A stretch of 22,984 nucleotides of DNA from a virus: the IMG/VR virus record IMGVR_UViG_3300042691_035074, positions 1 to 22,984 of that record; one strand, written 5' to 3'. A program made the translations under genes and the position numbers. Below are positions 3,997 through 21,353 of this stretch, one piece after another (within the stretch, counting starts at the first letter, position 1; every line of letters starts with the position of its first letter). The notes under the pieces are model-generated. The model was not told the DNA's origin. It was given only the letters and a program-made list of their open reading frames with translations, and did not search any database.

Positions 3997-4590
3997 ATGT
4001 TAGATAAAAATGATGCAATGATTCAAGGTCATGTTAAAATTTGGTGCCCCGACACTGGTGAAATTCTGACAGATAAACGCAATGCTATTCATTATGAAAA
4101 TATGAGTGAAAGTCTTGCCCAAAGTATTGGCAATAAAAGCACAGGATTCATCAGTAGAATGGCTTTTGGTAATGGCGCCACAGCAATTGATACAACTGGG
4201 GTAATCACATATTTGCCTACTAATACATTCGGACAAAGTGCAAGTTTATATAATCAAACCTATAGTAAAATAATTGATAATACTAGTGCATTAAACACAG
4301 ATCCTATTAGAAATTACATCGAAATTCGTCATACTCCTGGAACTATATATTCAGACATTTTTATTAGTTGTCTATTAGATTACACAGAACCTAGCGGGCA
4401 ACAAGCATTTGATAACAGTGCGTCAATGAGTGGAACTTATGTATTTGATGAATTGGGTTTATTAAGTGAAAACGGTAGATTACTTACTCATGTGGTATTT
4501 CATCCCGTACAAAAATCCTTAAATAGATTAATTCAAATCGATTACACAATTAGAATTCAAAGCCTGACCAATTTGAGTACTAACCTATAA
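3997..4590 (+). CDS. Phage structural protein with GxxKIxxPxTGE N-terminal motif
   Basis: This 197-residue protein starts at an ATG with an AGGA site. Residues 9-38 (GHVKIWCPDTGEILTDK followed by NAIHYENMSE) match a pattern I recall from structural proteins encoded near the fibre genes of marine T4-like phages. The rest is predicted to be mostly beta (for example SDIFISCLLDYTEPSGQQAF and GTYVFDELGLL), ending in a strand-rich segment VQKSLNRLIQIDYTIRIQS. There are no catalytic motifs, signal peptide or membrane segments. Placement between two fibre-type genes suggests a baseplate, tail or fibre-connector role. The assignment as structural is reasonable; the precise part of the virion is not known. 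The N-terminal motif recurs in the small gene just upstream. Confidence 0.65.
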   Translation: MLDKNDAMIQGHVKIWCPDTGEILTDKRNAIHYENMSESLAQSIGNKSTGFISRMAFGNGATAIDTTGVITYLPTNTFGQSASLYNQTYSKIIDNTSALNTDPIRNYIEIRHTPGTIYSDIFISCLLDYTEPSGQQAFDNSASMSGTYVFDELGLLSENGRLLTHVVFHPVQKSLNRLIQIDYTIRIQSLTNLSTNL

Positions 4591-6255: not shown

Positions 6256-7188
6256 ATGACATATGCCAGTGGCGGATTAATTCAAGCATCAGATTACAAT
6301 GGATTTGCGGGTGGATCCGCCGGCGCAAATGTTAGTGGACAGATTAACACCGTTTGGGGAATTGGTAGAGGTAATGCTGGATACGGACAAACTGCAGTGG
6401 CAAACGTTAGCGCATCGACCACAGTTACCGCTGCACAGTGGGCTAGTTTAATAAATACGGTTAATGGAGCAAGAAAACACCAGTCTGGTGCAGGATATTC
6501 AAATATTAGTGTTCCTACTGCAGGAACAACAATTTCGTTTATTAGTACATTATCTTCTACTCTAACTGCTGCTTATACTAACAGAATACCTGTTACAACA
6601 AATTCATCAAGCGCAACTTCAACCAAAAATATAACAATAAATGTTAGTGCTGGGGTGGCAGGAAGCGGATCTGTGACATGGACTGTGACATTTGCCTCAG
6701 TGGATCAATGTAGATATTTTTGGAATGCTGGTGGGTACGTTTATGTGTATTACAACAGTTTTACAAATTCAGGAGGAACTTCGCGCGGTACTAGCATTCA
6801 AACCTTAGCTCAAACAAATTATAATTATAAAGTAATGTTAGCTAATTCATTTAATGCCAGAGTAGGTACTGGAGGTACAGTAGTAACTGATACGACTACT
6901 GGTGGTTATTATGGACAATCTACAAGTCCTACAGAAAGATGCCGAATAAACAGTACTAGTTATTATTCGGGAGATTATATCTATCTTAATGTAAACACTA
7001 ATGGTACTGCTGGATCATACGGTGCTAATGGCAATACCATTACTTTAACATTTGGTGCATATTCTGCTAGTACTGGTAGCACCCAACCTTCAGATAGTAT
7101 AAATATAACTTTAGCTATGACTTGTGCTATAAACCCCCCAGCAACTACATATATTGCTAATACTTGGGGAACTCCAACCGTTGGTTAA
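6256..7188 (+). CDS. Virion-type protein, Gly/Ser/Thr/Asn-rich
   Basis: This 310-residue protein begins MTYASGGLIQASDYNGFAGG and continues with VNTVWG-like and GYGQTAVANV segments, a signature I associate with virion proteins of marine T4-like phages encoded beside the fibres. Residues about 50-75 (VTAAQWASLINTVNGARKHQ) are probably helical; the remainder is low-complexity and beta-rich, with many Gly, Ser, Thr and Asn and few charged residues (for example SKNITINVSAG-type strands and TNGTAGSYGANGNTITLTFG). There is no catalytic motif, signal peptide or membrane segment. A fibre tip, adhesin or capsid/tail decoration role is inferred from composition and position. The function is not known to me. 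Confidence 0.65.
   Translation: MTYASGGLIQASDYNGFAGGSAGANVSGQINTVWGIGRGNAGYGQTAVANVSASTTVTAAQWASLINTVNGARKHQSGAGYSNISVPTAGTTISFISTLSSTLTAAYTNRIPVTTNSSSATSTKNITINVSAGVAGSGSVTWTVTFASVDQCRYFWNAGGYVYVYYNSFTNSGGTSRGTSIQTLAQTNYNYKVMLANSFNARVGTGGTVVTDTTTGGYYGQSTSPTERCRINSTSYYSGDYIYLNVNTNGTAGSYGANGNTITLTFGAYSASTGSTQPSDSINITLAMTCAINPPATTYIANTWGTPTVG
7098..7105 (+). promoter_or_regulatory. Exact TATAAATA late-promoter-like box
   Basis: TATAAATA at 7098-7105 is an exact match to the T4 late-promoter box. It lies inside the 3' end of the preceding gene and about 95 bases before the ATG at 7200, so it could drive the small gene and the long overlapping modification block after it. It is an intragenic octamer in AT-rich DNA and may be chance. 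Confidence 0.3.
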
Positions 7189-7199
7189 TTTAAAAAATT

Positions 7200-7514
7200 A
7201 TGAATAGTGTTTCTCAATTAGTTGAGCAAGTGAAACTTGCTACCGATTATCAAATCAATAAAAGAATCTTAAGAGAACGTGTATTAACAGAACTACATAT
7301 GCCATACAATAATGGTATGTTTTTATTGACGCCTGAATTACTATCATTTGCCGCAACATGGCCCAATGATATATTATATCTTGAAGACACTTATCAAAAT
7401 CCAATTGAAATACACAGACAAGAGTTTTTAGACAAAGCCCGTGCACACTATCAACAAGCAATGAATGAATGGCATCAAAAGCATGAAGAACTTAAACGAA
7501 TTAGGAAAGTCTAG
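7200..7514 (+). CDS. Small conserved phage protein next to the tail genes
   Basis: This 104-residue protein has a helical N-terminus (SVSQLVEQVKLATDYQINKR), a central part ERVLTELHMPYNNGMFLLTP, and a charged helical C-terminus (QEFLDKARAHYQQAMNEWHQ followed by a Lys/Arg/Glu tail). It is followed by an overlapping glycosyltransferase-type gene. No known domain is recognised, but its size, location at the end of the fibre block and helical make-up would fit a small tail-associated protein or a fibre-assembly chaperone; this is inference only. No clear ribosome binding site precedes the ATG at 7200, which lies 11 bases after the preceding stop. Confidence 0.6.
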   Translation: MNSVSQLVEQVKLATDYQINKRILRERVLTELHMPYNNGMFLLTPELLSFAATWPNDILYLEDTYQNPIEIHRQEFLDKARAHYQQAMNEWHQKHEELKRIRKV

Positions 7515-8304
7515 AGGTGTTTTATTATTTGCTTTTAACAGTAAAACAGTTAGTTACGTAGATCTAGCAGTCAATTCAACAAAGTTAATAAAAAAATTTT
7601 TAAATCTACCTGTTACCCTAGTTACTGACAGTGAAGTACCAGAACCATCATTATTCGACAAAATTATAATGGTTGAAAGTAAAGATGGCAATGTTAGATT
7701 CACAAAAGAGCAAACGGTTATCGAATGGCGTAATTTTGATCGTTATAGAGTATACGAATTTAGCCCCTACTACGAAACTATATTAATTGACGTTGATTAT
7801 TTAATATTAGATAATACTTTAATAAAGTTGTTTGAACAAAATTTTGATTACAGATTGCAATACAGAATGACTACACCTGCAGGATTAAATCAAGATGAAA
7901 TGGGACCAATAAGTTTACCAATGGTATGGGCCACTGTTGTTTTATTTAGAAAAACCGAAGTCACTAAAATGTTTTTTGATTTAATAGGCCGTATTCAACG
8001 TAACTATGGATACTATCGAGCCCTGTTTGGTATAAGAGATACTAATTATAGAAATGATTTTGCTTTTAGCATTGCTAACATTATACTTAATGGATATACT
8101 GTTGGGCCTGAAAGAAGTATCCCATGGCCTTTGTTTACTATTGAGGACAATCTAAATTCCATAACTCGAAAAAATAATTTTCTGGTGGCAAAAACAATAG
8201 ATCGTGCATTTGTCATTCCTAAACAAAATATTCATATTATGGATAAAGCATTTTTACAATCCCAACAATTTCAACAATTTGTGCAGGACATGATCGATGA
8301 ATAA
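7465..8304 (+). CDS. Glycosyltransferase-fold protein (DxD)
   Basis: This protein of up to 279 residues looks like a nucleotide-sugar transferase of the GT-A type. The core begins GVLLFAFNSKTVSYVDLAVN, a beta strand and helix with the repeated-substrate layout of this fold, followed by VTLVTDSEVPE. PYYETILIDVDYLILD holds Asp109-Val-Asp111, the expected DxD metal/nucleotide-sugar site. The later segment MVWATVVLFRKTEVTKMFFD fits an acceptor region. Two starts are possible: ATG 7465, or ATG 7483, which reduces the overlap with the preceding gene from 50 to 32 bases; neither has a good ribosome binding site. It is a clear paralogue of the next gene. It probably transfers a sugar to a phage or host acceptor; donor and acceptor are unknown. 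Confidence 0.65.
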   Translation: MNGIKSMKNLNELGKSRGVLLFAFNSKTVSYVDLAVNSTKLIKKFLNLPVTLVTDSEVPEPSLFDKIIMVESKDGNVRFTKEQTVIEWRNFDRYRVYEFSPYYETILIDVDYLILDNTLIKLFEQNFDYRLQYRMTTPAGLNQDEMGPISLPMVWATVVLFRKTEVTKMFFDLIGRIQRNYGYYRALFGIRDTNYRNDFAFSIANIILNGYTVGPERSIPWPLFTIEDNLNSITRKNNFLVAKTIDRAFVIPKQNIHIMDKAFLQSQQFQQFVQDMIDE

Positions 8305-9163
8305 ACAAGGTAAAGGCTTTGTCACATTTGCACAAAATACTGAGACAGTAGACTATCTTAAGTTAGCCTACTTGCAAGCATTGAACATAAAAAGTATTCA
8401 TCAAGATGCAAGTTATTCTGTTATAGTTGATAAAAAAACTAAAAACACAATAACAGGTAGAAATTGGATAGATATATTTGATAATATAATTGATTTGCCA
8501 TACGATGAAAATGCTGAGGATAGTGATTGGAAATTAGCCAATGAATACCAAATATTTCAGTTAACTCCATACAAAGAAACAATTAAATTAGAAAGCGATT
8601 TATTGTTTACTAGATCCATGAACCATTGGTGGTCGGCTTTAAGATTAAAAGATATTGTTTTTAGTTACCATTGTAAAAATTATAGATCAGAAAATCGAGA
8701 GTATTCGATTTATAGAAAATTTTTCGTTGACAATCAGTTGCCTGATCTGTATAATGGTATGATGTATTTTAGGTATAGTCATTTAGCAGCCAAATTTTTT
8801 GAAACAGCACAACAAGTTTTACATTCTTGGAATGATTTGAAAACTGTTTTACTGAATGTCAGAGAAGATACACCTAGTACAGATGTTCTTTATGCAGTTA
8901 CAGCAAAAATAATTGGACCCGAACATTGCACATTGCCCTCCTTAGATTTTTTTAATTTTGTACATTTAAAACCTGCAATTAATTGCTGGGGTAACACCGA
9001 CGAAAGTTGGCAAAATAGCGTTAATAGTGAAATAGATGAATTAATAATTAGAGTTAACAATCTTAATCAATATTATCCGGTTCATTATTATGATAAAGAA
9101 TATTGCACAGATGAATTGATAGACCATTATGAGCGAATCTATAGAAGATCCAAGTTGGCTTGA
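8297..9163 (+). CDS. Glycosyltransferase-fold paralogue with altered DxD
   Basis: This 288-residue protein matches its upstream neighbour in layout: GFVTFAQNTETVDYLKLAYL aligns with GVLLFAFNSKTVSYVDLAVN, and PYKETIKLESDLLF aligns with PYYETILIDVDYLI. At the metal site Asp-Val-Asp is replaced by Glu99-Ser-Asp101, so sugar-nucleotide binding may be altered or lost. The central region has an aromatic segment (NHWWSALRLKDIVFSYHCKN) and LYNGMMYFRYS, which fits an acceptor pocket. The ATG at 8297 has AGGA (8285-8288) eight bases upstream and overlaps the previous stop by eight bases. It could be a partner or specificity subunit of the upstream enzyme, or an active enzyme using a variant motif. Confidence 0.6.
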   Translation: MNKQGKGFVTFAQNTETVDYLKLAYLQALNIKSIHQDASYSVIVDKKTKNTITGRNWIDIFDNIIDLPYDENAEDSDWKLANEYQIFQLTPYKETIKLESDLLFTRSMNHWWSALRLKDIVFSYHCKNYRSENREYSIYRKFFVDNQLPDLYNGMMYFRYSHLAAKFFETAQQVLHSWNDLKTVLLNVREDTPSTDVLYAVTAKIIGPEHCTLPSLDFFNFVHLKPAINCWGNTDESWQNSVNSEIDELIIRVNNLNQYYPVHYYDKEYCTDELIDHYERIYRRSKLA

Positions 9164-9518
9164 ACTTATCAAAGCATTTGAAACAGCACTAATTCATGTA
9201 GAAGAAATTCCTATCGAATATGAATATAGAGTTTATTATGATGAAAATGGTTTTATAACCAACACCAGTTGTTTAAAAAAAGATGAAATTCTTCCTGACA
9301 GACCTTACTTAATTGTTTCAAAAGATGAATTCGATAATTTTCACAAGTATATTGTTATAAAAAATAAACTAATAGAACGTAAAGACAACGCAGGGCAACT
9401 GAAACAAATCGTAAAAAGTACAACAGGGTTTCTAACAGTAAAGAATAATCCTGCTTTACTAATAGAGCAAGATGAATCTTATACAGATACGGAATACTAT
9501 GACTACCGAAATTATTGA
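9129..9518 (+). CDS. Small conserved phage protein of unknown function
   Basis: This 129-residue protein overlaps the end of the preceding glycosyltransferase-like gene by 35 bases. It is acidic at the N-terminus (MSESIEDPSWLELIKAFETA), then has a beta-type segment (YEYRVYYDENGFITNTSCLK, PYLIVSKDEFDNFHKYIVIK) and a Tyr/Asp-rich tail (DTEYYDYRNY). I recognise the general pattern from marine phage genomes but no family with a known function. It has no catalytic motif, signal peptide or membrane segment. The overlap with genes on both sides suggests co-translation with the glycosyltransferases, perhaps as an accessory subunit. Confidence 0.55.
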   Translation: MSESIEDPSWLELIKAFETALIHVEEIPIEYEYRVYYDENGFITNTSCLKKDEILPDRPYLIVSKDEFDNFHKYIVIKNKLIERKDNAGQLKQIVKSTTGFLTVKNNPALLIEQDESYTDTEYYDYRNY

Positions 9519-10404
9519 TATTGCAGACTTAGACTGTATTTTTTTAACCTATGATGAACCACTCAAGGAAGAATTTTGGATTCGTATTCAAAATATGGTA
9601 CCATGGGCTAAACGTGTAGATGGAGTTAAAGGTAGTGATGCTGCACATAAAGCAGCAGCCTTGGCCAGTGATACTGATCGTTTTGTGCTGATAGATGGGG
9701 ACAATATACCAGATCCCAATTTCTTTAACTGTCAACTTGAATTAAACGAAAACAATCGAGACTGTGTATTTAGGTGGAAAGCACGTAATCATATAAATGG
9801 TTTGATGTATGGCAATGGTGGACTAAGTTGTTGGACTAAAGAATTTGCCCTTAACATGAGAACACATGAAGCAACTGATGGCACGGATGAAACACAGGTA
9901 GAATTTTGTTTTCATCCTAAATATTGGGCTATGCATGATTGCTATAGCACTACATACCCCAATGCAACTCCATTCCAGGCTTGGCGGGCAGGCTTTAGAG
10001 AAGGTGTTAAAATGTGTTTGAACAGAGGTAGCCGCCCGACACTACAGGAATTTGAACAGGCAGTTCATGTAAGAAATTATGATCATCTTTGTATTTGGCA
10101 GACAGTGGGACGGGACGTTGAAAATGGCGATTGGGCTATATATGGGTCAAGGTTAGGAACCTATTTAACTATGCTGACAGACTGGGATTACAAAGAAGTA
10201 CAAAATTTTGACAAACTTAAAAATTTGTGGGAAAAATTTGAGCATAGTCCTCCTGAACAATTATTTGAACAGTTGAAAAACAGGCTTAGTTTACCTATCA
10301 CTGAATTAGATGCAGAGCAAAGTAAATTTTTTAAACATCATTACAAAAGTACATTCAAAAATGTAGGTGCTATATTTACAGAAACTATGGTGCTTGCTCA
10401 ATGA
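9499..10404 (+). CDS. Glycosyltransferase-like protein (DGD)
   Basis: Starting at ATG 9499 (301 residues), the protein begins MTTEIIDIADLDCIFLTYDE, a strand-helix-strand start of a GT-A-type fold, followed by WAKRVDGVKGSDAAHKAAAL and RFVLIDGDNIPDPNFFN, where Asp66-Gly-Asp68 is the likely metal and nucleotide-sugar site. Further conserved-looking segments include MYGNGGLSCWTKEF, FCFHPKYWAMHDCYSTTYPN and AWRAGFREGVKM. An upstream ATG at 9472 would add nine residues, but 9499 follows GGA with normal spacing and overlaps the previous gene less. The ATG of the next gene overlaps its stop (ATGA). A sugar transferase role is inferred from the fold and motif; the sugar and acceptor are unknown. Confidence 0.7.
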   Translation: MTTEIIDIADLDCIFLTYDEPLKEEFWIRIQNMVPWAKRVDGVKGSDAAHKAAALASDTDRFVLIDGDNIPDPNFFNCQLELNENNRDCVFRWKARNHINGLMYGNGGLSCWTKEFALNMRTHEATDGTDETQVEFCFHPKYWAMHDCYSTTYPNATPFQAWRAGFREGVKMCLNRGSRPTLQEFEQAVHVRNYDHLCIWQTVGRDVENGDWAIYGSRLGTYLTMLTDWDYKEVQNFDKLKNLWEKFEHSPPEQLFEQLKNRLSLPITELDAEQSKFFKHHYKSTFKNVGAIFTETMVLAQ

Positions 10405-11795
10405 CAAAAAGTGTATTTTTAAGTTCAGCCGAAGATGCAAAAGAAAAGTTAGGCCCGACTCTTTGTCTTGCTAAATGGAAACAGGTTAGTTTGCATTTGC
10501 CCACAGGATTAAACAACAGTTGCTACCATCCACCTTTGCATCAAATACCGGCAGATCTGTTAAAAGACAATTCTAGCGCACTGCATAATACACCTTACAA
10601 AAAACAACAACGTAAAATAATGTTAAAACAACAACGGCCTGATGAATGCAGTTATTGTTGGACACAAGAAGATTTAGGTAATCTCAGTGATAGGCATTAC
10701 CGTAGTGGAGAACCATGGGCTGCTAAAGACTTTGATGTTATTGAATCTAGTACAGGAGACGAAGATGTCTTACCTAGTTACGTTGAAGTTAATTTTAATC
10801 ACGCTTGTAATTTAAAATGTAGTTATTGTAGCCCCCAGTTTAGTAGTTCTTGGGCAGATGAAGTTGCCAGACATGGTGCATATCCAACTTCAGTACCACA
10901 CAATGCTCCTGAGCACTTCACCGGAAGTCGTCGACCTATTCCTGCTAGAGAGTATAATCCTTATGTAGAAGCATTTTGGCAATGGTGGCCTACATTGTAT
11001 CCTGAATTAGAACATTTTAGAATGACAGGTGGCGAACCTTTAATGGACCCTAATACTTATAAAGTTTTTGACTATGTATTAGCCAACCCCAGTTCTAAAT
11101 TGCATCTTAATGTGACTAGTAATTTTAGCGTCGAACCAAAATTGTTTGATCGTTATTTAGATTATGTAAAACGACTTTGTGATAACGACGATAAAAAAAT
11201 TGAGCACTTTATGCAATTTGTCAGTTTAGATACTGTTTTTGCCAAAGCAGAATATATTAGGTATGGATTAGATTTCGAGAGATTGTGGAATAACGTAAAT
11301 AGATTTTTAACTGAAGTTCCAAGTCGTAGTAGTCTTACATTTATAATTACTATGAATGCTTTGAATGTTAGTAGCGTAATTGATTTAATTACTAATATAC
11401 ATGGACTGAGAGAACTTTATAGCAAAACTTATCAAAGAGTTTGGTTTGATACTCCAATTTTAAGAAATCCTGAATGGCTCAGTGTGCAACTTTTACCTGA
11501 AAGTTATGTAGATAAACTAGAATTTGTTTGGAGTTTCATGCTTAAAAAATTAGAAACGTCTGATAAACCATTTAAAGGCTTTAAGGATTACGAATTACAA
11601 CGATTGCAAAGAGTAATTGATTGGATGCGAGAAGGGCAAAAACTGCCAGTCGAAATCTTAAAAAATAATAAGGCAAACTTTTATAAATTTTTTAAAGAAC
11701 ATGATATAAGACGTAACACTAATTTTGGATATATATTTCCTGAAATGCGGGAATTTTATTTAGAATGCAGCCATTATGCAAAATCCAATTCCTAA
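10401..11795 (+). CDS. Radical SAM protein with N-terminal twitch-type region, copy 1
   Basis: This 464-residue protein has the radical SAM core CNLKCSYC (Cys136, 140, 143) for the S-adenosylmethionine-binding 4Fe-4S cluster, and TGGEPL (209-214) for SAM binding. Before the core lies a Cys-rich region, LCLAKW (Cys22), NSCYHP (Cys41) and CSYCW (Cys83, 86), the layout of the N-terminal twitch radical SAM group, where a second cluster may bind. The usual CC pair is C-Y here. After the core comes the SSxW signature (FSSSWADEV), then EYNPYVEAFWQWW, shared almost exactly with copy 3. The C-terminus carries DIRRNTNFGYIFPE, a D-x2-R-x3-F motif also in copies 3, 4 and 5. The ATG overlaps the preceding stop (ATGA). 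The substrate is unknown. Confidence 0.85.
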   Translation: MTKSVFLSSAEDAKEKLGPTLCLAKWKQVSLHLPTGLNNSCYHPPLHQIPADLLKDNSSALHNTPYKKQQRKIMLKQQRPDECSYCWTQEDLGNLSDRHYRSGEPWAAKDFDVIESSTGDEDVLPSYVEVNFNHACNLKCSYCSPQFSSSWADEVARHGAYPTSVPHNAPEHFTGSRRPIPAREYNPYVEAFWQWWPTLYPELEHFRMTGGEPLMDPNTYKVFDYVLANPSSKLHLNVTSNFSVEPKLFDRYLDYVKRLCDNDDKKIEHFMQFVSLDTVFAKAEYIRYGLDFERLWNNVNRFLTEVPSRSSLTFIITMNALNVSSVIDLITNIHGLRELYSKTYQRVWFDTPILRNPEWLSVQLLPESYVDKLEFVWSFMLKKLETSDKPFKGFKDYELQRLQRVIDWMREGQKLPVEILKNNKANFYKFFKEHDIRRNTNFGYIFPEMREFYLECSHYAKSNS

Positions 11796-12924
11796 AACAT
11801 TTTGTCCTGCCAAGTGGGATGATTTAGTTGTACATATGCAACAAAACTATGTGTATGGTTGTTGTAAGGCTGCTCCGATAATTTTTGAAAAAGATTATAA
11901 AAGTATAATTCAAAATCAAAGACAAAATCTATTAGACGGTGTGCAGGATCCTTCATGTAACTACTGTTGGAGTGTAGAAAATAATAATTTACCTAGTTTA
12001 AGACAAGAATATTTAGAAAAATTTGATAAAAATAAATTTACAGAATATTTAAATGTTAATCGATCTACGAAAAATTTAGAAATTAATTTAGGTAACAGTT
12101 GCAATATGCAGTGTATATATTGTAACCCAAGACTTAGTAGTCAATGGGAAAACGATGTAAAGCAAAAAAAATATCCTGTTTTCACTGATCGATTTGTTTA
12201 TGAAATATCTGAAAAAAAAGACATAAATGAAACAATGCGGTTGAATTTAGAGATAATAGAAAAAGAACAACCAGATAAAATAACAATAATAGGTGGAGAA
12301 CCTTTACTTAACAAGCATTTTTGGAAAATAGCCAGTAAACTTAATAATACATTCTTGTCGATTACAACTAATCTAAATTGTGAAATCGATGTAATAAAAA
12401 GATTAATAGAATTAGAGAATGAAAATAATTTACAATTAGATGTAATGGCTAGTTTAGATTGTACTTTTCCGCTATCTACTTTTAATCGATATAATTTAGA
12501 CTATGATAAGTTTTTGAATAATTTGCTATATTTTATAAAAAATTCTAAAGCATGTCGAATAGGTATACAAAGTCTTATGACCTGTATCACTATATTAGAT
12601 ATTGAAAACTTTTTGAATTTTCTTAAGTCATTGCAAGAAAAATTTCCAATGACAGAATTATTTTTTAATTTTCATGTTTGCACTGAACCAAAGATTCAAA
12701 GTTTTTCGGTTATGCCAGATAAAACAAAGGACGAAATATTATTTTACATGAAAAATTATAAGCATGAAGTAAAAGTTAACGGATTTCAAAATATAATCTC
12801 TTACCTACAATCTTCTAAATTTAACAGTGGATTACATAAACAATTTAAAAGATTTATAGAAGAATGGGAGTCCAGAAAAGAAATGTATTTGCCATTGGAA
12901 GTTAAAGAAAAATTATGTATATGA
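11776..12924 (+). CDS. Radical SAM protein with N-terminal twitch-type region, copy 2
   Basis: This 382-residue copy is the shortest of the six. It has FCPAKW (Cys10), GCC (29-30) and CNYCW (61, 64) in the N-terminal region, then the radical SAM core CNMQCIYC (109, 113, 116) with LSSQWENDV after it, and IGGEPLL (172-178). It belongs with copies 1 and 3 by its AKW and CxxCW motifs but keeps the paired CC seen in copies 4-6. It lacks the EYNPYVEAF segment of copies 1 and 3. Its codon usage is notably AT-rich and the protein is rich in Lys, Asn and Ile (8 G/C among the 60 bases 12001-12060). It overlaps the previous gene by 20 bases. The substrate is unknown. Confidence 0.8.
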   Translation: MQNPIPKTFCPAKWDDLVVHMQQNYVYGCCKAAPIIFEKDYKSIIQNQRQNLLDGVQDPSCNYCWSVENNNLPSLRQEYLEKFDKNKFTEYLNVNRSTKNLEINLGNSCNMQCIYCNPRLSSQWENDVKQKKYPVFTDRFVYEISEKKDINETMRLNLEIIEKEQPDKITIIGGEPLLNKHFWKIASKLNNTFLSITTNLNCEIDVIKRLIELENENNLQLDVMASLDCTFPLSTFNRYNLDYDKFLNNLLYFIKNSKACRIGIQSLMTCITILDIENFLNFLKSLQEKFPMTELFFNFHVCTEPKIQSFSVMPDKTKDEILFYMKNYKHEVKVNGFQNIISYLQSSKFNSGLHKQFKRFIEEWESRKEMYLPLEVKEKLCI

Positions 12925-14261
12925 CATCAGAATCTGATATTGAGTATAAAAGACGTGTGATTGACATTAAGTCAAACTCTTTCTGTGCAGCAAAATGGTA
13001 TAACGCCACTATATGGTTAGGTAGCGGAATGACTACTAGTTGTCATCATCCTTTGCCCCACAAAGTTGATGTGGAACAAGTTAAATTGAATCCTAAACTA
13101 TTGCATAATACAGAAACAAAAAAGCATGAAAGAAGTCAAATGCAAATAGGACAAAGACCTTCAGGGTGTGAATACTGTTGGAAAATCGAAGATATGAATA
13201 AGGATTCTATCAGCGATCGAGTATATAAAACAAAAATTTATAAAGAAGAAGATCTGGATTTTGCATTTAAATCGAACAGTAATCAAGATTTTAATTTAAA
13301 AACTTTAGAAATCGCATTTGATAGAACTTGTCAATTTGCTTGTAGTTATTGTAATCCAGCTTTTAGTAGTACCTGGGTTAACGACATAAAGAAAAATGGC
13401 CCTTATACCAATTTAATCAGTGATGGTAGAAATCATTTTACTCATACACATGATAGTAGTCAATTACATAAATTTGGTGAATACAATCCATATGTAGAGG
13501 CATTTTTTAAATGGTGGGAATCTGACCTACACAAAACTTTAAATGAACTGCGTATTACAGGTGGTGAACCTTTAATGAGTGGGGAAACTTGGAAACTTTT
13601 AGAATGGTTCAAGAAAAATAAAGGTAAAAGCAATACACGACTGGCGCTTAATAGTAATCTTGGAACTGAAGTTGATGTAGATAAATTGTTAGATGCAGTA
13701 GAAGGTTTAACTTTTGATCTTTATACTAGTAATGAAAGTGTAGGAAACAAAGCTGAATATATTAGGGATGGATTAAACTACAATGATTGGCTGTCTAATA
13801 TTATAAAACTAATCGAAAGTAAAAAATTAGCACGACTACATATTATGTGTACAGTTAACGCTTTATGTTTAGACAGTCTGCCAGAACTATTAGAGATAAT
13901 TGTTGATTTGAAAAAAAGATACGGAAGAGATTATCCCAATATTACACTTAATATACTTAGATTCCCGAGTTTTCAAAGTCCGTTAGTATTACCAATTGAG
14001 ATGAGGATAAAATATAGAGATCAATTAATTAATTTTTTGGTAAAACATAAAGGTCATAATTACTTACACGAACATGAAATAAATCATTTACAACGTCTAA
14101 TAGATTATTTATATTCAGTTAAAACTCCTCACAGTGAAGCATTCGATTTGCCACATTTAAAAAATGATTTTAAACAGTTTTATCTGCAATATGATCAAAG
14201 ACGCGGTAAAAATTTTGTTGCAACATTTCCAAACTTAGCAGACTGGTTTAACTCATTATGA
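12915..14261 (+). CDS. Radical SAM protein with N-terminal twitch-type region, copy 3
   Basis: This 448-residue protein is the closest relative of copy 1. The N-terminal region has FCAAKW (Cys24), TSCHHP (Cys43, with His where the second Cys of CC would be) and CEYCW (85, 88). The core is CQFACSYC (139, 143, 146), followed by FSSTWVNDI, EYNPYVEAFFKWW and TGGEPL (215-220). The end has DQRRGKNFVATFPN, matching copy 1. The start is ATG 12915 or ATG 12921; it overlaps the preceding gene by about ten bases, and no strong ribosome binding site is seen. Copies 1 and 3 share a gapless extra segment, so a duplication within the cluster is likely. The reaction and substrate are unknown. Confidence 0.8.
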   Translation: MYMTSESDIEYKRRVIDIKSNSFCAAKWYNATIWLGSGMTTSCHHPLPHKVDVEQVKLNPKLLHNTETKKHERSQMQIGQRPSGCEYCWKIEDMNKDSISDRVYKTKIYKEEDLDFAFKSNSNQDFNLKTLEIAFDRTCQFACSYCNPAFSSTWVNDIKKNGPYTNLISDGRNHFTHTHDSSQLHKFGEYNPYVEAFFKWWESDLHKTLNELRITGGEPLMSGETWKLLEWFKKNKGKSNTRLALNSNLGTEVDVDKLLDAVEGLTFDLYTSNESVGNKAEYIRDGLNYNDWLSNIIKLIESKKLARLHIMCTVNALCLDSLPELLEIIVDLKKRYGRDYPNITLNILRFPSFQSPLVLPIEMRIKYRDQLINFLVKHKGHNYLHEHEINHLQRLIDYLYSVKTPHSEAFDLPHLKNDFKQFYLQYDQRRGKNFVATFPNLADWFNSL

Positions 14262-15589
14262 GCATAAAAGAGTTCTATAACAAAGGGTTTAATTATCTAG
14301 ATAGGTCACCTTACTTTATTGAATATGATAAATTAACTGATGATCAAAAATTTAAACTAACTGAAAGCAAATACTTTTGTATGATGCCATGGGTGCATAT
14401 GCATGCCTATCCAGACGGAAGAGTGTACCCTTGTTGTTTAGCAGATTATTGGCATCCAGTAGGTGATCTTAGAAAAAACACAATGATTGAAGTTTGGAAT
14501 AATGAAAAATATAAAGAACTTAGACGCAATATGCTAAATGAAAAACCTAGCGAGGTTTGTAAAAAGTGCTACGAGCAAGAATCTAATGGTTTTTTTAGTA
14601 TGCGATATGATTCTAACCGTAATTACGGACACCATGTTAATGAAATTAATTCTACTAGCGAAGCCGGTTATACACAAGATTTTAAAATTAGATATTGGGA
14701 CATAAGATTTTCAAATTTATGTAATTTTAGATGTAGAACATGCGGTCCGATTTTTAGTAGTAATTGGTATAATGATTATGTAAAAATGTACAATAAAGTG
14801 CCTGATGTTCTTGGTCGTGATATGGAAAGAATTGAATACACTGCAGGCAATGAACAAAGCATGTTAGAACAAATGGAACCACATATTCCGTATTTAGAAC
14901 AGGTGTATTTTGCAGGTGGCGAACCTTTAATCATGAAGGAACACTATTATCTATTAGAAAAATTAATAGAATATGGAAAAACAGATGTAAGGATACAATA
15001 CAATACTAACTTTAGTGAACTGTCTTATAAAGATAAACATGTTTTTGATTATTGGAAGCACTTTAAAAATGTCAGTGTTGGTGCTAGCTTAGATGCCAGC
15101 GGTAAACGGGCAGAACTTATGAGAAAAGGCACAATATGGAAGCAAACTGTGGCAAATCGGCAGTTAATGATGGAAAAAGTGCCGCACGTTGATTTTTATA
15201 TTGCTGCTACTATAAGTGCAATGAATGTGTTACATATTTTAGATTTTCATAAAGAATGGGTAGAGTTAGGATTAGTTAAACACAAAGATTTTAATTTTAA
15301 TATCTGTCAAGGTCCAGACTGGTACAGGATTGATATATTTCCTGAAGAATTCAAATTGAAAATAATAAAACCTGCATACGAAAAGCACTTAGAGTGGTTA
15401 GCGCCTCATGATGATTTAGAACGAGCAACCAATGGATATTGTAGTGCAATTAAATTTATGATGAAAGAACACGAAAATAATTTGTTACCAAAATTTGTAG
15501 AAGAAGTTGACAAACTAGATCACAATAGATCTGAAAATTTTTGGAATACCTTTCCTGAATTAGGGTTTTTAAAACATGATGCTTCCTAA
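14258..15589 (+). CDS. Radical SAM protein with N-terminal twitch-type region, copy 4
   Basis: This 443-residue protein starts with ATGA overlapping the previous stop. Its N-terminal region is the best match to a complete twitch/SPASM-like cluster site: FCMMPW (Cys41), YPCC (59-60) and CKKCYEQE (101, 104). The radical SAM core is CNFRCRTC (155, 159, 162), followed by FSSNWYNDY, and AGGEPL (219-224). The core reads CRTC instead of CxYC, placing it in a second subgroup with copies 5 and 6. The C-terminus has DHNRSENFWNTFPE. In related radical SAM enzymes such clusters support peptide or small-molecule chemistry; which applies here is not known. Confidence 0.85.
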   Translation: MSIKEFYNKGFNYLDRSPYFIEYDKLTDDQKFKLTESKYFCMMPWVHMHAYPDGRVYPCCLADYWHPVGDLRKNTMIEVWNNEKYKELRRNMLNEKPSEVCKKCYEQESNGFFSMRYDSNRNYGHHVNEINSTSEAGYTQDFKIRYWDIRFSNLCNFRCRTCGPIFSSNWYNDYVKMYNKVPDVLGRDMERIEYTAGNEQSMLEQMEPHIPYLEQVYFAGGEPLIMKEHYYLLEKLIEYGKTDVRIQYNTNFSELSYKDKHVFDYWKHFKNVSVGASLDASGKRAELMRKGTIWKQTVANRQLMMEKVPHVDFYIAATISAMNVLHILDFHKEWVELGLVKHKDFNFNICQGPDWYRIDIFPEEFKLKIIKPAYEKHLEWLAPHDDLERATNGYCSAIKFMMKEHENNLLPKFVEEVDKLDHNRSENFWNTFPELGFLKHDAS

Positions 15590-16787
15590 AACAATTTGTA
15601 TGTTACCCTGGATAAGTGTAGAAACTAGTCCCACTGGAACAGCCAGGCCATGTTGCTTGGCCAAAGAAGAAATACTGGACGATCAAGGTGTGCCCTACGA
15701 TTTAACTAAAACAACATTAGAAGAAATCTACAAAAGTAATTACATGATAAAACTTAGACAAGATTTTAGATTAGGTAATAAACCTGCCACGTGTAAGCAA
15801 TGTTGGGAAGAAGAATCAGTAGGAAAAGACAGTAAAAGAATAAACAGTAAAATACGTCTTAAAGAATTGTATGAATTAGTAGACTGGCAAAATGACACAC
15901 CTAATCAGTTATGGTTTTTAGATTTAAAATTAGGTAATATCTGTAATTTAAAATGTAGAATATGTGGAAGTTGGAGTAGTAGTAAATGGGCAGAAGAAGA
16001 AATAAATTATTTAGAAAATATTGTAGATAAAAAGAAGACACTAGCATACAAATGGTTAAAGCAAGGAGCATGGCCAAGAAATTCTGAAAATTTTTGGAAA
16101 AACTTAGAAAGATTATTGCCCGATGTCAAATACATTGAATTTACTGGAGGGGAACCATGGTTGATAGAAGAACACTTTCAACTTTTAGAGTTTGCAGTTG
16201 ATCAAGGATTAAGTTCACAAATTGACATTCATTATAATACAAATGGAACACAAAGTGTAAAACAACATGTTAATTTATTTAAAAAATTCAATAGGGTAGA
16301 AATTGCATTTAGTGTTGACAACGTTGACAAAAAATTTGAATATGAACGTTATGGCGCTAATTGGAATCAAGTAAATCAACATATAGACGAAGTGCATGAA
16401 CTAAGAAGGAATCAATCTAATATAACAACACAACTTTGTTTCACTGTAAATATACAAAATGTTTATTACTTAGACGAATTGTTAAATTGGGCAGATACAA
16501 AACATTTCGATAATATATATTTTAATATTTTACATGGCCCGGAATTTATGTGTGTTCAAAATTTAACTCATTCTGCTAAAAAATTAGTCATTGATAAATT
16601 ATCTAATATAAAATGGAGTAATAATTTTTACGCAGACCAAATTAATCAAATTATTAATTTTATTAAGAATGGTCCGGCATCCGACGGCAAAGATTTTTTA
16701 ACTAGAATGAAACAGACAGATAATTATCGAAATCAAAGTTTTCTTAATACACATTATGATATTGCAAAGGCAATGGGATATGAATAA
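15576..16787 (+). CDS. Radical SAM protein with N-terminal twitch-type region, copy 5
   Basis: This 403-residue protein begins at ATG 15576 (a second ATG follows at once), with AGGG ten bases upstream, overlapping the previous gene by 14 bases. The N-terminal region has ICMLPW (Cys8), RPCC (26-27) and CKQCWEEE (73, 76), all cysteines expected for an additional iron-sulfur cluster. The radical SAM core is CNLKCRIC (123, 127, 130), with SSSKWAEEE after it, and TGGEPW (190-195), where Trp replaces the usual Leu. The end DNYRNQSFLNTHYD keeps part of the C-terminal motif. It belongs with copies 4 and 6. The substrate is unknown. Confidence 0.85.
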   Translation: MMLPKTICMLPWISVETSPTGTARPCCLAKEEILDDQGVPYDLTKTTLEEIYKSNYMIKLRQDFRLGNKPATCKQCWEEESVGKDSKRINSKIRLKELYELVDWQNDTPNQLWFLDLKLGNICNLKCRICGSWSSSKWAEEEINYLENIVDKKKTLAYKWLKQGAWPRNSENFWKNLERLLPDVKYIEFTGGEPWLIEEHFQLLEFAVDQGLSSQIDIHYNTNGTQSVKQHVNLFKKFNRVEIAFSVDNVDKKFEYERYGANWNQVNQHIDEVHELRRNQSNITTQLCFTVNIQNVYYLDELLNWADTKHFDNIYFNILHGPEFMCVQNLTHSAKKLVIDKLSNIKWSNNFYADQINQIINFIKNGPASDGKDFLTRMKQTDNYRNQSFLNTHYDIAKAMGYE

Positions 16788-18075
16788 GAGTTTTTGTTTT
16801 GCGCCCTGGACTCACACTTATTTGAGTCCACAGACTGAACGACGTATGTGTTGTACTAGTAGGGAGCCAGCACAAAATTTTAAACAGTATATAGATACAA
16901 CAGCAGGCACTGGAAAATATATTCCTTTAACTTTAGAAGATCATTGGAATTCCGATCATATGAAATCTGTTCGGAAACGAATGTTAGCAGGTGAAATTTT
17001 GCCTGAATGTGAAGTATGCAATAATAAGTTATTGAATACAGATGTTTACCGTAGTTATTTTAACAATTTATTTTCTCATAAGTATAATGAAGTATTAGAA
17101 AATACAGATAAGACCACTGGTTACACCACTATGAAACCTGTAAGTTGGGATTATAGATTTAGTAATCTGTGTAATTATAAGTGTCGTACATGCGGTGATA
17201 TGTTAAGCAGCAGTTGGGAAACGGAGCAACGTCAACACAACATGATAGATTGGCATGATCCTAAAAACCATTGGATGCAGCCAGATGTAAAAACACAAAT
17301 TGAACAATTTCAAAGTGATCAAATTGAAAAAGAATTTAGTCAAGCAGTAGAGGAACATCGTGTAGAGGAAATTTATTGGGTTGGTGGCGAACCGCTGATG
17401 TACGAACAACATTGGCGGTATATGCAAAGAATAATTGAGTTAGGAGACGGTCCGAATGTTTATGCAAGATATAACACAAATCTCAGTAGAGTTAAGTATA
17501 AAGGTATTGATTTGTATAATGATATTCTTTCTAGGCTTGGTGATTGGCAAATATGTGCAAGTTTGGACGGCACAGGTAAGATCGGAGAATACATTAGAAC
17601 AGGTCTTAATTATGATTCGTGGTATGAAAACTTCCGTAAAGGAGTTGAAATCCAACGTCACCGACGTCAAATGCGAATTGACTTTACGCTCACTTTGCCC
17701 GGAATGTTCGAAATTATTAATATACAGCGACTTGCAGAAAAAGAAAATGTAGATGTATTATCGAAAGTAGTTTTTAGTTTAAGTCCTAACATTATTTTAA
17801 GTCCCTTATCACTACCAAAAACAATTTTACATCCTTGGATAGACGAAATTTTGAACAGTGATTTACACATACCCAGTATGAGAGATATTCTAGTACAATT
17901 AAAATCGAGGCCTACTTTTCAAGAGGAATGGCCCGAACAATACCAAAAAGGATTATATAACGGCAAGAAGAGAATATTACATTTGGAAAAAATAAGAACA
18001 CAATCGATTACTCTTGAAGAAATACTTGCTCAAAAACCTGAATTATTGAAATGGTGGAATCAAATTGAATGTTAA
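16780..18075 (+). CDS. Radical SAM protein with N-terminal twitch-type region, copy 6
   Basis: I choose ATG 16780 (431 residues) rather than ATG 16756, because AAAGG at 16766-16770 is well placed and the overlap with the previous gene is then eight bases. The protein begins MNKSFCFAPW (Cys6), then RMCC (24-25) and CEVCNN (77, 80), the radical SAM core CNYKCRTC (131, 135, 138) with LSSSWETEQ, and VGGEPLMY (201-208). The C-terminal D-x2-R-x3-F motif of copies 1, 3, 4 and 5 is not evident; the end is helical and Lys/Glu-rich (HLEKIRTQSITLEEILAQKP). It is the last copy in the array and overlaps the unknown gene that follows by 11 bases. The substrate is unknown. Confidence 0.8.
   Translation: MNKSFCFAPWTHTYLSPQTERRMCCTSREPAQNFKQYIDTTAGTGKYIPLTLEDHWNSDHMKSVRKRMLAGEILPECEVCNNKLLNTDVYRSYFNNLFSHKYNEVLENTDKTTGYTTMKPVSWDYRFSNLCNYKCRTCGDMLSSSWETEQRQHNMIDWHDPKNHWMQPDVKTQIEQFQSDQIEKEFSQAVEEHRVEEIYWVGGEPLMYEQHWRYMQRIIELGDGPNVYARYNTNLSRVKYKGIDLYNDILSRLGDWQICASLDGTGKIGEYIRTGLNYDSWYENFRKGVEIQRHRRQMRIDFTLTLPGMFEIINIQRLAEKENVDVLSKVVFSLSPNIILSPLSLPKTILHPWIDEILNSDLHIPSMRDILVQLKSRPTFQEEWPEQYQKGLYNGKKRILHLEKIRTQSITLEEILAQKPELLKWWNQIEC
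18053..18058 (+). promoter_or_regulatory. Shine-Dalgarno site GGTGGA for a TTG start
   Basis: GGTGGA lies six bases before TTG 18065 and is inside the last codons of radical SAM copy 6. It supports the TTG start, because the frame has a stop (TGA at 18047-18049) just upstream and no ATG until far downstream. Confidence 0.4.
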
Positions 18076-19147
18076 TGTTACACTTAGAAACCCTCTTTTA
18101 AAAGAAGATCAGATAACTTATCATATAGATGTATATGACACACCATTGGCAAAACTGTGGTATGCTGCGTTGCAAGGACTATTACAATCTAACAAATATT
18201 TAGAAAAGAATTTTTGTTTTTTAGGATTTCCCGATAGCGATAGAAATTTAAGTTATATATGTAAGGAATTAAGTTGGGCTAAGGAAACTATTAACAATTA
18301 TTTCAGTTCAGAATATCAAATCTTAGAAACGTTTACACCTGAAGTCATGTTTTCTAATTTAGAAATAAATCATGAATTAATGAATAAACTTCATTTTCAT
18401 TTTGAACGTTTACAAGGAACAGTTAATGGGTTAAGCGATTATTATAAAAAAGCAGATTACAAAACAAAATTTGCAATAAGACAATTGAATAATCTGTGCC
18501 ACGAAGCAGAAGCACTAATGCTTAGTATAAGAAAAAAACACAATATGCCACTGTGGATTAGGCCCAGTCAAATTACGACATTTCTAACTGCCCACCGATA
18601 TAAATTTCCAGATGAACATAAACAAATATTCAATGAAAAAAACTATGATAGAAAATTTGGTGAGGTTTATCTGCATTGGTCACAAATAGGCAAAACTTTA
18701 TTCGAGGTATTTAGGGATGAAGATGCTGCTGATTTAGATATTGCTACCTGTTCGGCTATTACCCATTTAGAATACTATAGCGGTGAATTTGATATAGAAT
18801 GGGGAAACAGTATTACATATAATGGAAACTTCCCCTGGCATAATTTAGAAATAGATAATTTTAAAAAATGGTTAGTAAAAAATAAAATCGATATCAATGA
18901 CTCAATCTACAATTTCGGTTACCACTCTATAGGACAAGTTGATTTAATCAAAAGCTTTGGAACCAAAAATCAGTCTGAAATCTTAAAAGTGCTTTCAAAA
19001 CATTTAGACATATACTGCATTACTGCAGGAGAACTAACTAATTTTTATAATTATAATTGGACGGACGATAACTATTATCATGAGCAAATTAAACTATTGA
19101 TCCCCGGTTATGATTACAGTAGTCGTCAAATTTTACAAGGGGCTTGA
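18065..19147 (+). CDS. Unknown His/Glu-rich partner of the radical SAM cluster
   Basis: The 360-residue protein must begin at TTG 18065 (or a rarer codon), since the next in-frame Met is residue 95. No known domain is recognised, though I have the impression that similar proteins occur in other marine T4-like phages. It is mostly helical. Potential metal ligands are spaced along the helices: HFHFERLQG (His110, His112, Glu114), CHEAEALM (His146, Glu147, Glu149), GEVYLHWSQIGKTLFE (Glu200, His204, Glu214) and THLE (His234, Glu236). The second and first of these are separated by a regular helix (KKADYKTKFAIRQLNNL). This could be a metal-binding helical bundle, but it might equally be a structural or substrate-binding protein. 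It overlaps copy 6 and is followed directly by the microprotein gene. Confidence 0.65.
   Translation: MNVNVTLRNPLLKEDQITYHIDVYDTPLAKLWYAALQGLLQSNKYLEKNFCFLGFPDSDRNLSYICKELSWAKETINNYFSSEYQILETFTPEVMFSNLEINHELMNKLHFHFERLQGTVNGLSDYYKKADYKTKFAIRQLNNLCHEAEALMLSIRKKHNMPLWIRPSQITTFLTAHRYKFPDEHKQIFNEKNYDRKFGEVYLHWSQIGKTLFEVFRDEDAADLDIATCSAITHLEYYSGEFDIEWGNSITYNGNFPWHNLEIDNFKKWLVKNKIDINDSIYNFGYHSIGQVDLIKSFGTKNQSEILKVLSKHLDIYCITAGELTNFYNYNWTDDNYYHEQIKLLIPGYDYSSRQILQGA
19137..19142 (+). promoter_or_regulatory. Shine-Dalgarno site AAGGGG
   Basis: AAGGGG lies six bases before ATG 19149. It is one of the strongest ribosome binding sites in the window and supports translation of the very short gene that follows. 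Confidence 0.55.
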
Positions 19148-19148
19148 T

Positions 19149-19250
19149 ATGGCATGGTTATTACGATTATATCACAGAATAAAACTCGAAATTCGATATA
19201 GAAAAAAATTAAAAGAATTACGTAAAAGAGACCCATTTATTTACAAATGA
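19149..19250 (+). CDS. 33-residue basic microprotein
   Basis: ATG 19149 to TGA 19248-19250 encodes 33 residues: MAWLLRLYHRIKLEIRYRKK then LKELRKRDPFIYK. A strong AAGGGG site precedes it, and its stop overlaps the ATG of the next gene (ATGA), so it is probably translationally coupled. It is highly basic with a short hydrophobic start and a predicted amphipathic helix. I recall short basic proteins with the ending KRDPFIY in other marine T4-like phages, so I believe it is conserved. Possible roles are an RNA- or membrane-binding peptide, a small accessory subunit, or even a substrate of the neighbouring enzymes; none can be shown here. Confidence 0.65.
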   Translation: MAWLLRLYHRIKLEIRYRKKLKELRKRDPFIYK

Positions 19251-19918
19251 TATATTGTATCGGTGACAGTTTTACTTTTGGTGCAGAATTGCCAGACACA
19301 GGCAACGGCATTAGACCTAGTAAATTAGCATGGCCGGGAATCTTATCTAATATGCTGATGCATCCTACTACAAATTTAGGAAAACAAGCATGTAGTAATC
19401 TACGTATTATAAAAAAAACAATGTCATGTGTCTTTAGAGGAGATGCAGATTTAATCATTATTGCATTTACTAATCCAGAAAGAACAGATTTTATTGATAA
19501 ACAGGGAGTATTTTCTGTCTGGCCAGGAAGGAATATTCAACGTTTAGAATATACTAGAGCAAAGATTATTAATTATATCAATGAAATTTATGTGGAAGGT
19601 AAGACTGTTAATTGGTATCAAAGAAACTGGTTACGAGATGTGATATTATTACAAAATTTTCTACAACAAAATAATCAAAAATATATAATGGTTCAATCTC
19701 ATATGTCGCAATGGAATAATTATGTTTTCAAAGATCAAAATCTTGATCTTACATCTAAAATTGATACCACTTATTTTGTAGGATGGCCCTATGATGGATT
19801 TACAGAATGGGCTCACGGTTCTAAAGAAGGCCCCGGAGGTCATTTTTTAGAAGATGGTCACAAGATTGTAGCAGAAAAAATTTATGCATATATTGGGCGT
19901 TTCGGCTGGTTTTCATGA
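19247..19918 (+). CDS. SGNH/GDSL-type hydrolase-like protein
   Basis: This 223-residue protein begins MIYCIGDSFTFGAELPDTGN, with Gly6-Asp-Ser8-Phe as block I of SGNH hydrolases (esterases, often acting on acetyl or acyl groups on sugars). Later segments fit the family: FTNPER (Asn76) as block III and GGHFLEDGHKIVAEKI as block V. His199 lies where the catalytic His is expected, six residues before the following GH. The acid normally three residues before that His is absent (Pro196), so activity may rely on another residue. The start ATG overlaps the preceding microprotein stop. A role in adding, removing or remodelling an acyl group on the proposed decoration is inferred. Confidence 0.65.
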   Translation: MIYCIGDSFTFGAELPDTGNGIRPSKLAWPGILSNMLMHPTTNLGKQACSNLRIIKKTMSCVFRGDADLIIIAFTNPERTDFIDKQGVFSVWPGRNIQRLEYTRAKIINYINEIYVEGKTVNWYQRNWLRDVILLQNFLQQNNQKYIMVQSHMSQWNNYVFKDQNLDLTSKIDTTYFVGWPYDGFTEWAHGSKEGPGGHFLEDGHKIVAEKIYAYIGRFGWFS

Positions 19919-21353
19919 TGCTGCTGTGTGTGTTTTAGACATTCTTGGAAACATACAGTTTGCAGCTCACAGTGAAAGATACAGTAAAATAAAAAATGAT
20001 CATAATATTGATTCGGGTTTAATTGACGAATTAAAAGAATATGATATAACTAAAATTGGCTATTATGAAAATCCTTTACAAAAGCAACTGAGGCAATTCT
20101 ATGCAGGGCAAGGTATAGAATGTAACGCTATTACTAAACAACAAATAATTAGAAAATATTTTGGTAACGCCTTTTGCGGATGCGACATTCAAACGTTTAA
20201 TCATCATTTAAGTCATGCAGCCGCGGGTTTTCAAACCAGTGACTTTGACCGTGCCACCGTAGTAGTGATAGATGCCATTGGAGAATGGGAAACTGTATCT
20301 ATCTATGCTGCAGAGTATCGAGATAACCGTGCGGTGTATAAAAAACTTTGGACAAAGTACTATCCTCATAGTATAGGATTGTTTTATAGTTCAATGACCA
20401 AAGCAGTCGGACTCAAACCATTAGATGAAGAATATATTTTAATGGGAATGAGTGCTTATGGTGATCGGGATTATTCAAATTTACTAAAGAATCATTTTAT
20501 TAAAGATGAGTGGAATTTAGAATTTACCGATAACTTTCATCTAGGCACAGACTTATCTCATACAAATTATCTAGATCCAATGGATGTGGCTGCAGGCGCA
20601 CAAACACTGACTGAAAATTTAATTTGTAATGTTATGAAACGTGCTAAAAATTACAATTGGTCAGACAACTTAGTTTACATGGGTGGTGTGGCTTTGAACT
20701 GTTTGGCTAACGCGAAGTTATTTGAATATTTTAAAAATATTTGGATAATGCCTAATCCCGGAGATGCAGGTAGTAGTCTAGGAGCAGCAGCATTAGTGTA
20801 CGGTAAACGACTTAATTGGACCAATTGTTATTTAGGCCATAATATACCAGGACCCTATCCAGTAAATTCTTTATTAGATGAATTATTAAAAAATAAAATT
20901 GTGGGTATTGCCAATGGTAGAGCCGAATTCGGTCCTAGAGCATTGGGCAATAGAAGTTTGCTAGCAGATCCCAGAGGAACAGATATTAAAGATAAAGTTA
21001 ATGAAATAAAACAAAGACAAAAATTCAGACCCTTTGCACCAGTAATATTAGAAGAATTGGCCGACGACTATTTTGAAATGCCTACAAAACAAAGCAGGTA
21101 TATGCAGTTTATTGCCCCTTGTCGTTATCCTGATTTATTCCCCGCTATTGCACATTATGATAATACCAGCCGGGTACAAACTGTGCCTAAGGATAATTCC
21201 GGAATTCGAGAATTATTAGAAAAATGGTTTATATTAACAGGCTGTCCTATTCTATTAAATACAAGTCTAAATATTCGTGGTCAACCAATGGTGAATAATC
21301 GAAAAGACGCAGATGATTTTCAAACACTATATAATGTGAGAGTTTTTTCGTAG
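19884..21353 (+). CDS. O-carbamoyltransferase (NodU/CmcH/TobZ family)
   Basis: This 489-residue protein carries the family's features. N-terminal: MHILGVSAGFHDAAVCVLD, then FNHHLSHAAAGF (His107, 108, 111), metal- and substrate-related His residues. Middle: YPHSIGLFYSSMTKAVGLKP, YILMGMSAYGD, YMGGVALNCLANAK and NPGDAGSSLGAA. C-terminal: GRAEFGPRALGNRSLLADPR (345-364), KFRPFAPVILEE and TSLNIRGQPMVN. Family members use carbamoyl phosphate and ATP to make carbamoyl-adenylate and then carbamoylate a hydroxyl, usually on a sugar or antibiotic. The protein is at the short end of the family but ends in a way I consider complete. It overlaps the SGNH gene by 35 bases. The acceptor is unknown; a glycan decoration is plausible. 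Confidence 0.85.
   Translation: MHILGVSAGFHDAAVCVLDILGNIQFAAHSERYSKIKNDHNIDSGLIDELKEYDITKIGYYENPLQKQLRQFYAGQGIECNAITKQQIIRKYFGNAFCGCDIQTFNHHLSHAAAGFQTSDFDRATVVVIDAIGEWETVSIYAAEYRDNRAVYKKLWTKYYPHSIGLFYSSMTKAVGLKPLDEEYILMGMSAYGDRDYSNLLKNHFIKDEWNLEFTDNFHLGTDLSHTNYLDPMDVAAGAQTLTENLICNVMKRAKNYNWSDNLVYMGGVALNCLANAKLFEYFKNIWIMPNPGDAGSSLGAAALVYGKRLNWTNCYLGHNIPGPYPVNSLLDELLKNKIVGIANGRAEFGPRALGNRSLLADPRGTDIKDKVNEIKQRQKFRPFAPVILEELADDYFEMPTKQSRYMQFIAPCRYPDLFPAIAHYDNTSRVQTVPKDNSGIRELLEKWFILTGCPILLNTSLNIRGQPMVNNRKDADDFQTLYNVRVFS

Follow-up and report, generated by a model that had tools for sequence, protein, structure and literature searches.

An ordered array of N-twitch radical SAM genes in a fibre- and glycosyltransferase-linked module of T4-like phages

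Radical S-adenosylmethionine (SAM) enzymes with twitch or SPASM domains have been characterised largely one by one. In the Campylobacter phages CP220 and CPt10, an interchangeable module holds five radical SAM genes (PMC2853527). The T4-like genome TARA_ERS488813_N000010 carries 12 radical SAM genes (PMC5332604), and the host-recognition islands of pelagimyophages differ by their radical SAM cassettes (PMC7029224). Here, we describe six consecutive genes, g1 to g6, encoding radical SAM proteins with an N-terminal twitch (N-twitch) in the virus record IMGVR_UViG_3300042691_035074; the window, i.e., the whole stretch of DNA analysed, is the complete IMG/VR record of 22,984 bases, itself a genome fragment. 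A literature search covering few subscription journals returned no paper naming the NF033640 model of this family or describing an N-twitch array. T4-like phages were thus already known to have modules rich in radical SAM genes, but none of the papers searched describes N-twitch genes arrayed in a fixed order and linked to genes for fibres and glycosyltransferases.

The array occupies positions 10401-18075 on the + strand, and its successive open reading frames (ORFs) overlap by 20, 10, 4, 14, and 32 bases. All six proteins passed the curated cut-off of 170 bits for NF033640 (N_Twi_rSAM, NCBIfam), across most of the model, comprising the core genes g1 (10401..11795; 324 bits), g3 (12915..14261; 295 bits), g4 (14258..15589; 398 bits, unrounded 397.9), g5 (15576..16787; 330 bits), and g6 (16756..18075; 291 bits), as well as the optional insert g2 (11776..12924; 172.7 bits), which clears the threshold by less than 3 bits. 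Furthermore, PF04055 matched at six places in the array, above its cut-off in g2, g4, and g5 each alone, in g1 and g3 after neighbouring matches were added, and just below it in g6, while PF13186 was above cut-off in g4 and g5.

In g1 numbering, the N-terminal residues C22, C41, C83, and C86 together with W26, and the core motifs C136xxxC140xxC143, S148-S149-x-W151, and GGEP (210-213), are invariant across g1-g6. Among 451 sequences assigned to g1, g3, g4, g5, and g6, plus six of g2, the seven cluster cysteines (core and N-terminal) are kept at 97-100%. The first-pass annotation, made from the letters alone, had described six consecutive overlapping radical SAM genes with CxxxCxxC, GGEP, and separate N-terminal cysteines, and this description is borne out; the two ways in which it might have failed, that the proteins were not radical SAM or that their N-terminal cysteines varied within the family, are contradicted by the profile matches and by the conservation, respectively. 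Its SSxW signature is indeed invariant in the six, but less general among relatives, where the W occurs in only 47% of g5 sequences and the second S in 72% of g3 sequences. C22, C41, C83, and C86 are the kind of conserved cysteines by which a SPASM/twitch auxiliary 4Fe-4S cluster is predicted, and since the cluster cysteines are conserved, the sequences argue that all paralogues of the array may be active.

Collection scans with g4 and g1 as queries gave 39 and 80 loci, respectively, an alignment of the six proteins having been dropped as query because it was too divergent. The commonest complete pattern was g1-g3-g4-g5-g6, in this exact order, in about 50 related IMG/VR loci, a number that includes some near-copies (e.g., L024, L025, and L031) and so does not count independent loci. 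The insert g2 was found in six array patterns including the window, and one further locus has two weaker g2-like genes. Hence the array of six announced earlier holds for the window, whereas the conserved unit has five genes, and numbers elsewhere rise to 10-11 members per locus in the divergent relatives L037, L038, and L043 and range from 3 to 17 per whole record. In a quick tree, built without bootstrap, a single branch sets apart each of g1, g3, g5, and g6, and nearly sets apart g4, while {g1,g2,g3} and {g4,g5,g6} form two halves. Support for the g1 branch is just 76, and the positions of divergent rows are unsure owing to long branches. Judged from their sequences, the five core genes are best regarded as ancient, non-redundant paralogues held in order, because they combine exact order, own (or near-own) clades, and conserved cysteines. 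Two loci show altered genes: L096:6721-9432 is a single long ORF scoring as a fused g1-g3 pair, and in L092 g3 is in pieces.

The phage origin assumed by the first-pass annotation is borne out by the marker gp23, present in 12 of the 14 long records of relatives (two were without it); by this marker the carriers are T4-like jumbo phages, and their genomes reach 374 kb. A cyanophage origin was set aside since psbA was not found in the 14 records, an exclusion that is not complete. A tblastn search with g1, S310, A104, B279, D310, and E360 (the last five being partner genes, described below) produced no hit among 50,697 phage records.

The array belongs to a larger module with fibre, glycosyltransferase, and usually carbamoyltransferase genes. 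Clustering revealed a constant neighbour order of s197, F538, S310, A104, B279, C288, x129, D310, array, and E360, followed by an optional SGNH-like gene and then usually the carbamoyltransferase. Since the first loci had been gathered via the array itself, a rescan anchored on D310 was run, which detected at least 597 stretches of DNA from uncultivated viruses. Among the best 80, which are the closest matches to a profile built from array loci, so that looser arrangements may be missed, a radical SAM gene was present in all 69 loci having 3 kb downstream (at least two in 66), and S310, B279, and C288 were present in all 78 having 4 kb upstream. From B279 to E360, neighbouring genes overlap in 86-100% of cases. 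Taken with the order, clades, and cysteines, these overlaps and constant partners give good support to the earlier suggestion that the array serves a dedicated pathway of several steps or acts on more than one substrate. Accessory inserts in related loci include genes for an FkbM methyltransferase and for two other radical SAM proteins, one of the B12-binding and one of the SPASM type.

In the window, all on the + strand, the module is preceded by T858 (3..2579), a 5'-incomplete T4-like virion/baseplate structural protein with PHROG virion structural and baseplate matches. It is followed by s197 (3997..4590), a conserved virion-locus gene with 50-53% identity in the jumbo phages Atu_ph07 and Phosso; F538 (4627..6243), a fibre-like protein with PHROG tail/virion matches and a Peptidase_G2 match below cut-off; and S310 (6256..7188), a variable fibre/adhesin-like protein present in 86 array loci. 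The enzyme operon begins with A104 (7200..7514) and continues with B279 (7465..8304), C288 (8297..9163), the conserved small protein x129 (9129..9518; 84 loci), and D310 (9472..10404), the most conserved partner (mean column identity 67%). Beyond the array lie E360 (18065..19147; 78 loci), a conserved partner without assigned family, the optional SGNH-like protein (19247..19918; 31 loci), labelled by eye with a weak DUF6071 match below cut-off, and the Nol/NodU-type carbamoyltransferase (19884..21353; PF16861, PF02543, and phrog_1601; 68 loci). A deoxycytidine monophosphate (dCMP) deaminase and a kinase-like gene, partners in 13 and 10 loci, respectively, lie downstream.

Regarding partner families, the C288 profile matched glycogenin (E 7e-6) and the B279 profile matched C288 (hhalign 99.5%, E 4e-23), by which both are predicted GT8 homologues, although neither matched Pfam GT8 when searched singly. 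D310 may be glycosyltransferase-like solely through its DGDN motif; its profile searches gave no GT8 match, only chance rows in PDB, and no alignment with C288, and so did not confirm this assignment. PDB profile searches with E360 and B279 returned nothing. The confident E360 model (predicted local distance difference test, pLDDT, 90) had no significant Foldseek match, and its VIA-align rows were mostly cyclophilins, with Z of 7-8 over about 135 residues, a range that can reflect a common arrangement; tentatively, and without sequence support, the model can be likened to a cyclophilin that carries a helical insert. No short repeated core, of the kind seen in ribosomally synthesised and post-translationally modified peptides (RiPPs), was seen in S310, A104, or x129, and x129 and A104 were set aside as candidate peptide substrates for want of a core motif.

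A T4-late-promoter-like motif occurs within 150 bases upstream of F538 in 58 of 74 loci, against a background of about 3%, and upstream of A104 a sigma70-type promoter has a high score for 59 of the 91 orthologues, compared with no more than 17% for other genes, figures that describe these loci rather than a blind test, the motif definitions having been set after the sequences were viewed. A terminator precedes A104 in 26 of 91 orthologues (0-1 elsewhere). Because of these signals and of the overlaps from B279 to E360, the fibre genes and the enzymes look like two transcription units, late and early-type, respectively. Within C288, the window also has a perfect TTGACA-17-TATAAT (8727-8755), a candidate promoter sequence.

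Contexts outside arrays were inspected in only five places and are given as illustration, not as a count. Some N-twitch members have sugar-type neighbours: GDSL genes and one for an NAD-dependent epimerase in a metagenome-assembled genome (MAG) of Halobacteriovoraceae, and DegT and ADH genes in phage record G002. Large N-twitch proteins are also encoded at L337:5553-7136 and L338:5561-7093, where the flanking genes by eye resemble recombination exonuclease subunits and there are no sugar genes. L127, filed under a Flavobacteriales MAG, has sliding clamp and clamp loader-like ORFs (by eye) beside a g1 relative and is probably a phage contig. In K566, a cultured Vibrio phage, a GT8 (PF01501) and a GT4-like gene are interspersed among the N-twitch genes, these neighbour matches being below cut-off, and a fibre-like ORF is nearby.

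The slot that the array fills in the window, after s197 and F538, holds four PF04055-type genes in the cultured jumbo phages Atu_ph07 (L212:21451-29100) and Phosso (L213:20638-28381), together with a gene for a protein of about 300 amino acids ending in CHxSCHxSCHxSRSRR. The motif CHxSCHxSCHxSRxRR was found in at least 120 IMG/VR stretches, at the extreme C-terminus in 78 of 78 ORFs (L215-L294), and a radical SAM-like ORF lies near it in 39 of the 48 loci of 8 kb or more, so that CHxS proteins are a possible widespread viral RiPP-like system. Because Atu_ph07 and Phosso hold another radical SAM set after s197 and F538, the slot next to the fibre genes seems to receive different radical SAM cassettes, of which the fibre might be the shared target.

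The g4 model (pLDDT 93) is a radical SAM barrel and matches solved radical SAM structures with Z up to 11.8. In a profile alignment (E 2e-4), the N-terminal cysteines of g1, spaced 19/42/3, align with those of BtrN, spaced 18/45/3; in BtrN, the twitch cluster has four cysteine ligands and the enzyme performs a two-electron oxidation (PMC9012708). The array proteins thus have the four cysteines predicted to hold a twitch cluster as in a BtrN-type sugar dehydrogenase, and because of this alignment oxidative sugar chemistry is proposed.

In this context, our favoured reading, held at somewhat under even confidence, is that the array supplies the radical chemistry of a phage biosynthetic cassette whose product, a modified glycan, is also attached by it, with S310 (or F538) as the likeliest site. 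Each enzyme would cleave SAM at its core 4Fe-4S cluster and take hydrogen from a different position, and the N-terminal cluster, with four cysteine ligands at BtrN-like spacing, would probably accept an electron, which makes two-electron oxidations (or epimerisations or rearrangements) of sugar carbons likely. Glycosyltransferases would attach the sugar to S310, the proposed acceptor, and the carbamoyltransferase would cap a hydroxyl. Transcription of the enzyme operon probably starts at a separate promoter of the sigma70 type, ahead of the late fibre genes, so that the enzymes would be ready when the fibres are made. Rather doubtful is the broader proposal that five distinct radical SAM enzymes, working in an ordered line, give phage tail fibres a new modification, whether of carbohydrate or of protein, and that the slot beside the fibre genes swaps whole radical SAM cassettes between phage lineages.

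Several observations weigh against the glycan reading. The module core lacks nucleotide-sugar synthesis genes, and the host or genes at other sites would therefore need to supply the sugar; fibre and enzymes are apparently separate units, so that their adjacency says less about the acceptor than if they shared an operon; and the window is exceptional in having no good promoter before A104. Some extra copies of the family sit between recombination-type genes with no sugar context. Moreover, the fold neighbours of g4 are tied (BlsE, Z 11.8; anSMEcpe, 11.1; SkfB, 11.1; DesII, 11.0), and so the modelled fold fails to separate sugar-acting from peptide-acting enzymes. A peptide substrate would suit both the tentative cyclophilin-like part of E360 and the radical SAM cassettes that other phages have in this slot.

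These last points lead to the best-surviving alternative, in our judgement unlikely but a serious contender, in which the target of the radical SAM enzymes is the fibre protein S310 itself (cross-links, epimerisation, or oxidation of its residues), as in RiPP maturation, and glycosyltransferases act afterwards. The linkage of S310 to all 78 D310-anchored loci suits it, as do the tie of anSME and SkfB among the neighbours of g4, the E360 resemblance, and the Atu_ph07 and Phosso slot with its CHxS-ending protein, whose motif is always C-terminal and usually near a radical SAM-like ORF. However, the CHxS core is found only in other phages, S310, A104, and x129 having no short repeated core; no RiPP recognition element (RRE) or leader-like element turned up, no dedicated tool having been applied; and the constant GT8-like and common carbamoyltransferase partners indicate sugars.

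Less probable still, the cassette could act early on the host surface, altering the O-chain or another envelope glycan and blocking superinfection by competing phages. This would leave the adjacency to fibre genes unexplained, and the GT8-like partners are similar to glycogenin, an enzyme that adds glucose to a protein. In its favour, the sigma70-type promoter of the enzyme operon is separate from the late fibre unit, and one paper proposes a superinfection-blocking role for glycosyltransferases of the pelagimyophage host-recognition island, where radical SAM cassettes vary too (PMC7029224).

Production of a hypermodified DNA base or nucleotide appears very improbable. The downstream dCMP deaminase and kinase-like genes hint at it, phages use glycosyltransferases on DNA, and the nucleotide-acting viperin and MoaA are profile relatives of the array proteins, but those two genes are not constant, while the fibre, glycosyltransferase, and carbamoyltransferase genes are. 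Lastly, mere expansion of paralogues that are selfish or redundant and share no pathway, to which the variable copy numbers and the fused ORF of L096 might point, was already disfavoured and is scarcely credible given the conserved order, clade structure, and cysteines.

In brief, five conserved paralogues in line, within a module of such wide occurrence, suggest multi-step radical chemistry, beside genes that likely decide host binding. If fibre modification proves true, this would be a post-translational chemistry of the virion that is directly testable, with cultured Vibrio phages offering a smaller version. Among known systems, NF033640 shares the N-terminal twitch, core CxxxCxxC, and GGEP with the six proteins, whereas its name gives no reaction and its definition includes no ordered five-gene array. 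BtrN, a butirosin aminocyclitol dehydrogenase, is alike in having a twitch domain whose four cysteines are spaced to match, but its twitch is C-terminal rather than N-terminal and the similarity is weak. CP220 and CPt10 are large phages combining five radical SAM genes with sugar-transferase-like genes and an amidinotransferase; however, CP220 was rejected as a homologous array, its best NF033640 score being 31 bits, far below the cut-off. TARA_ERS488813_N000010 and the pelagimyophages, compared by description only, are likewise radical SAM-rich T4-like phages with a fibre and glycosyltransferase island, although the descriptions consulted give no array order, family, or partner module. The Vibrio phages K566 and KVP40-like are cultured T4-like phages with N-twitch-like genes, which K566 pairs with GT8, but their copies number three to five, most of them scoring under the family cut-off, and they do not have the five-gene order that characterises the array described here.

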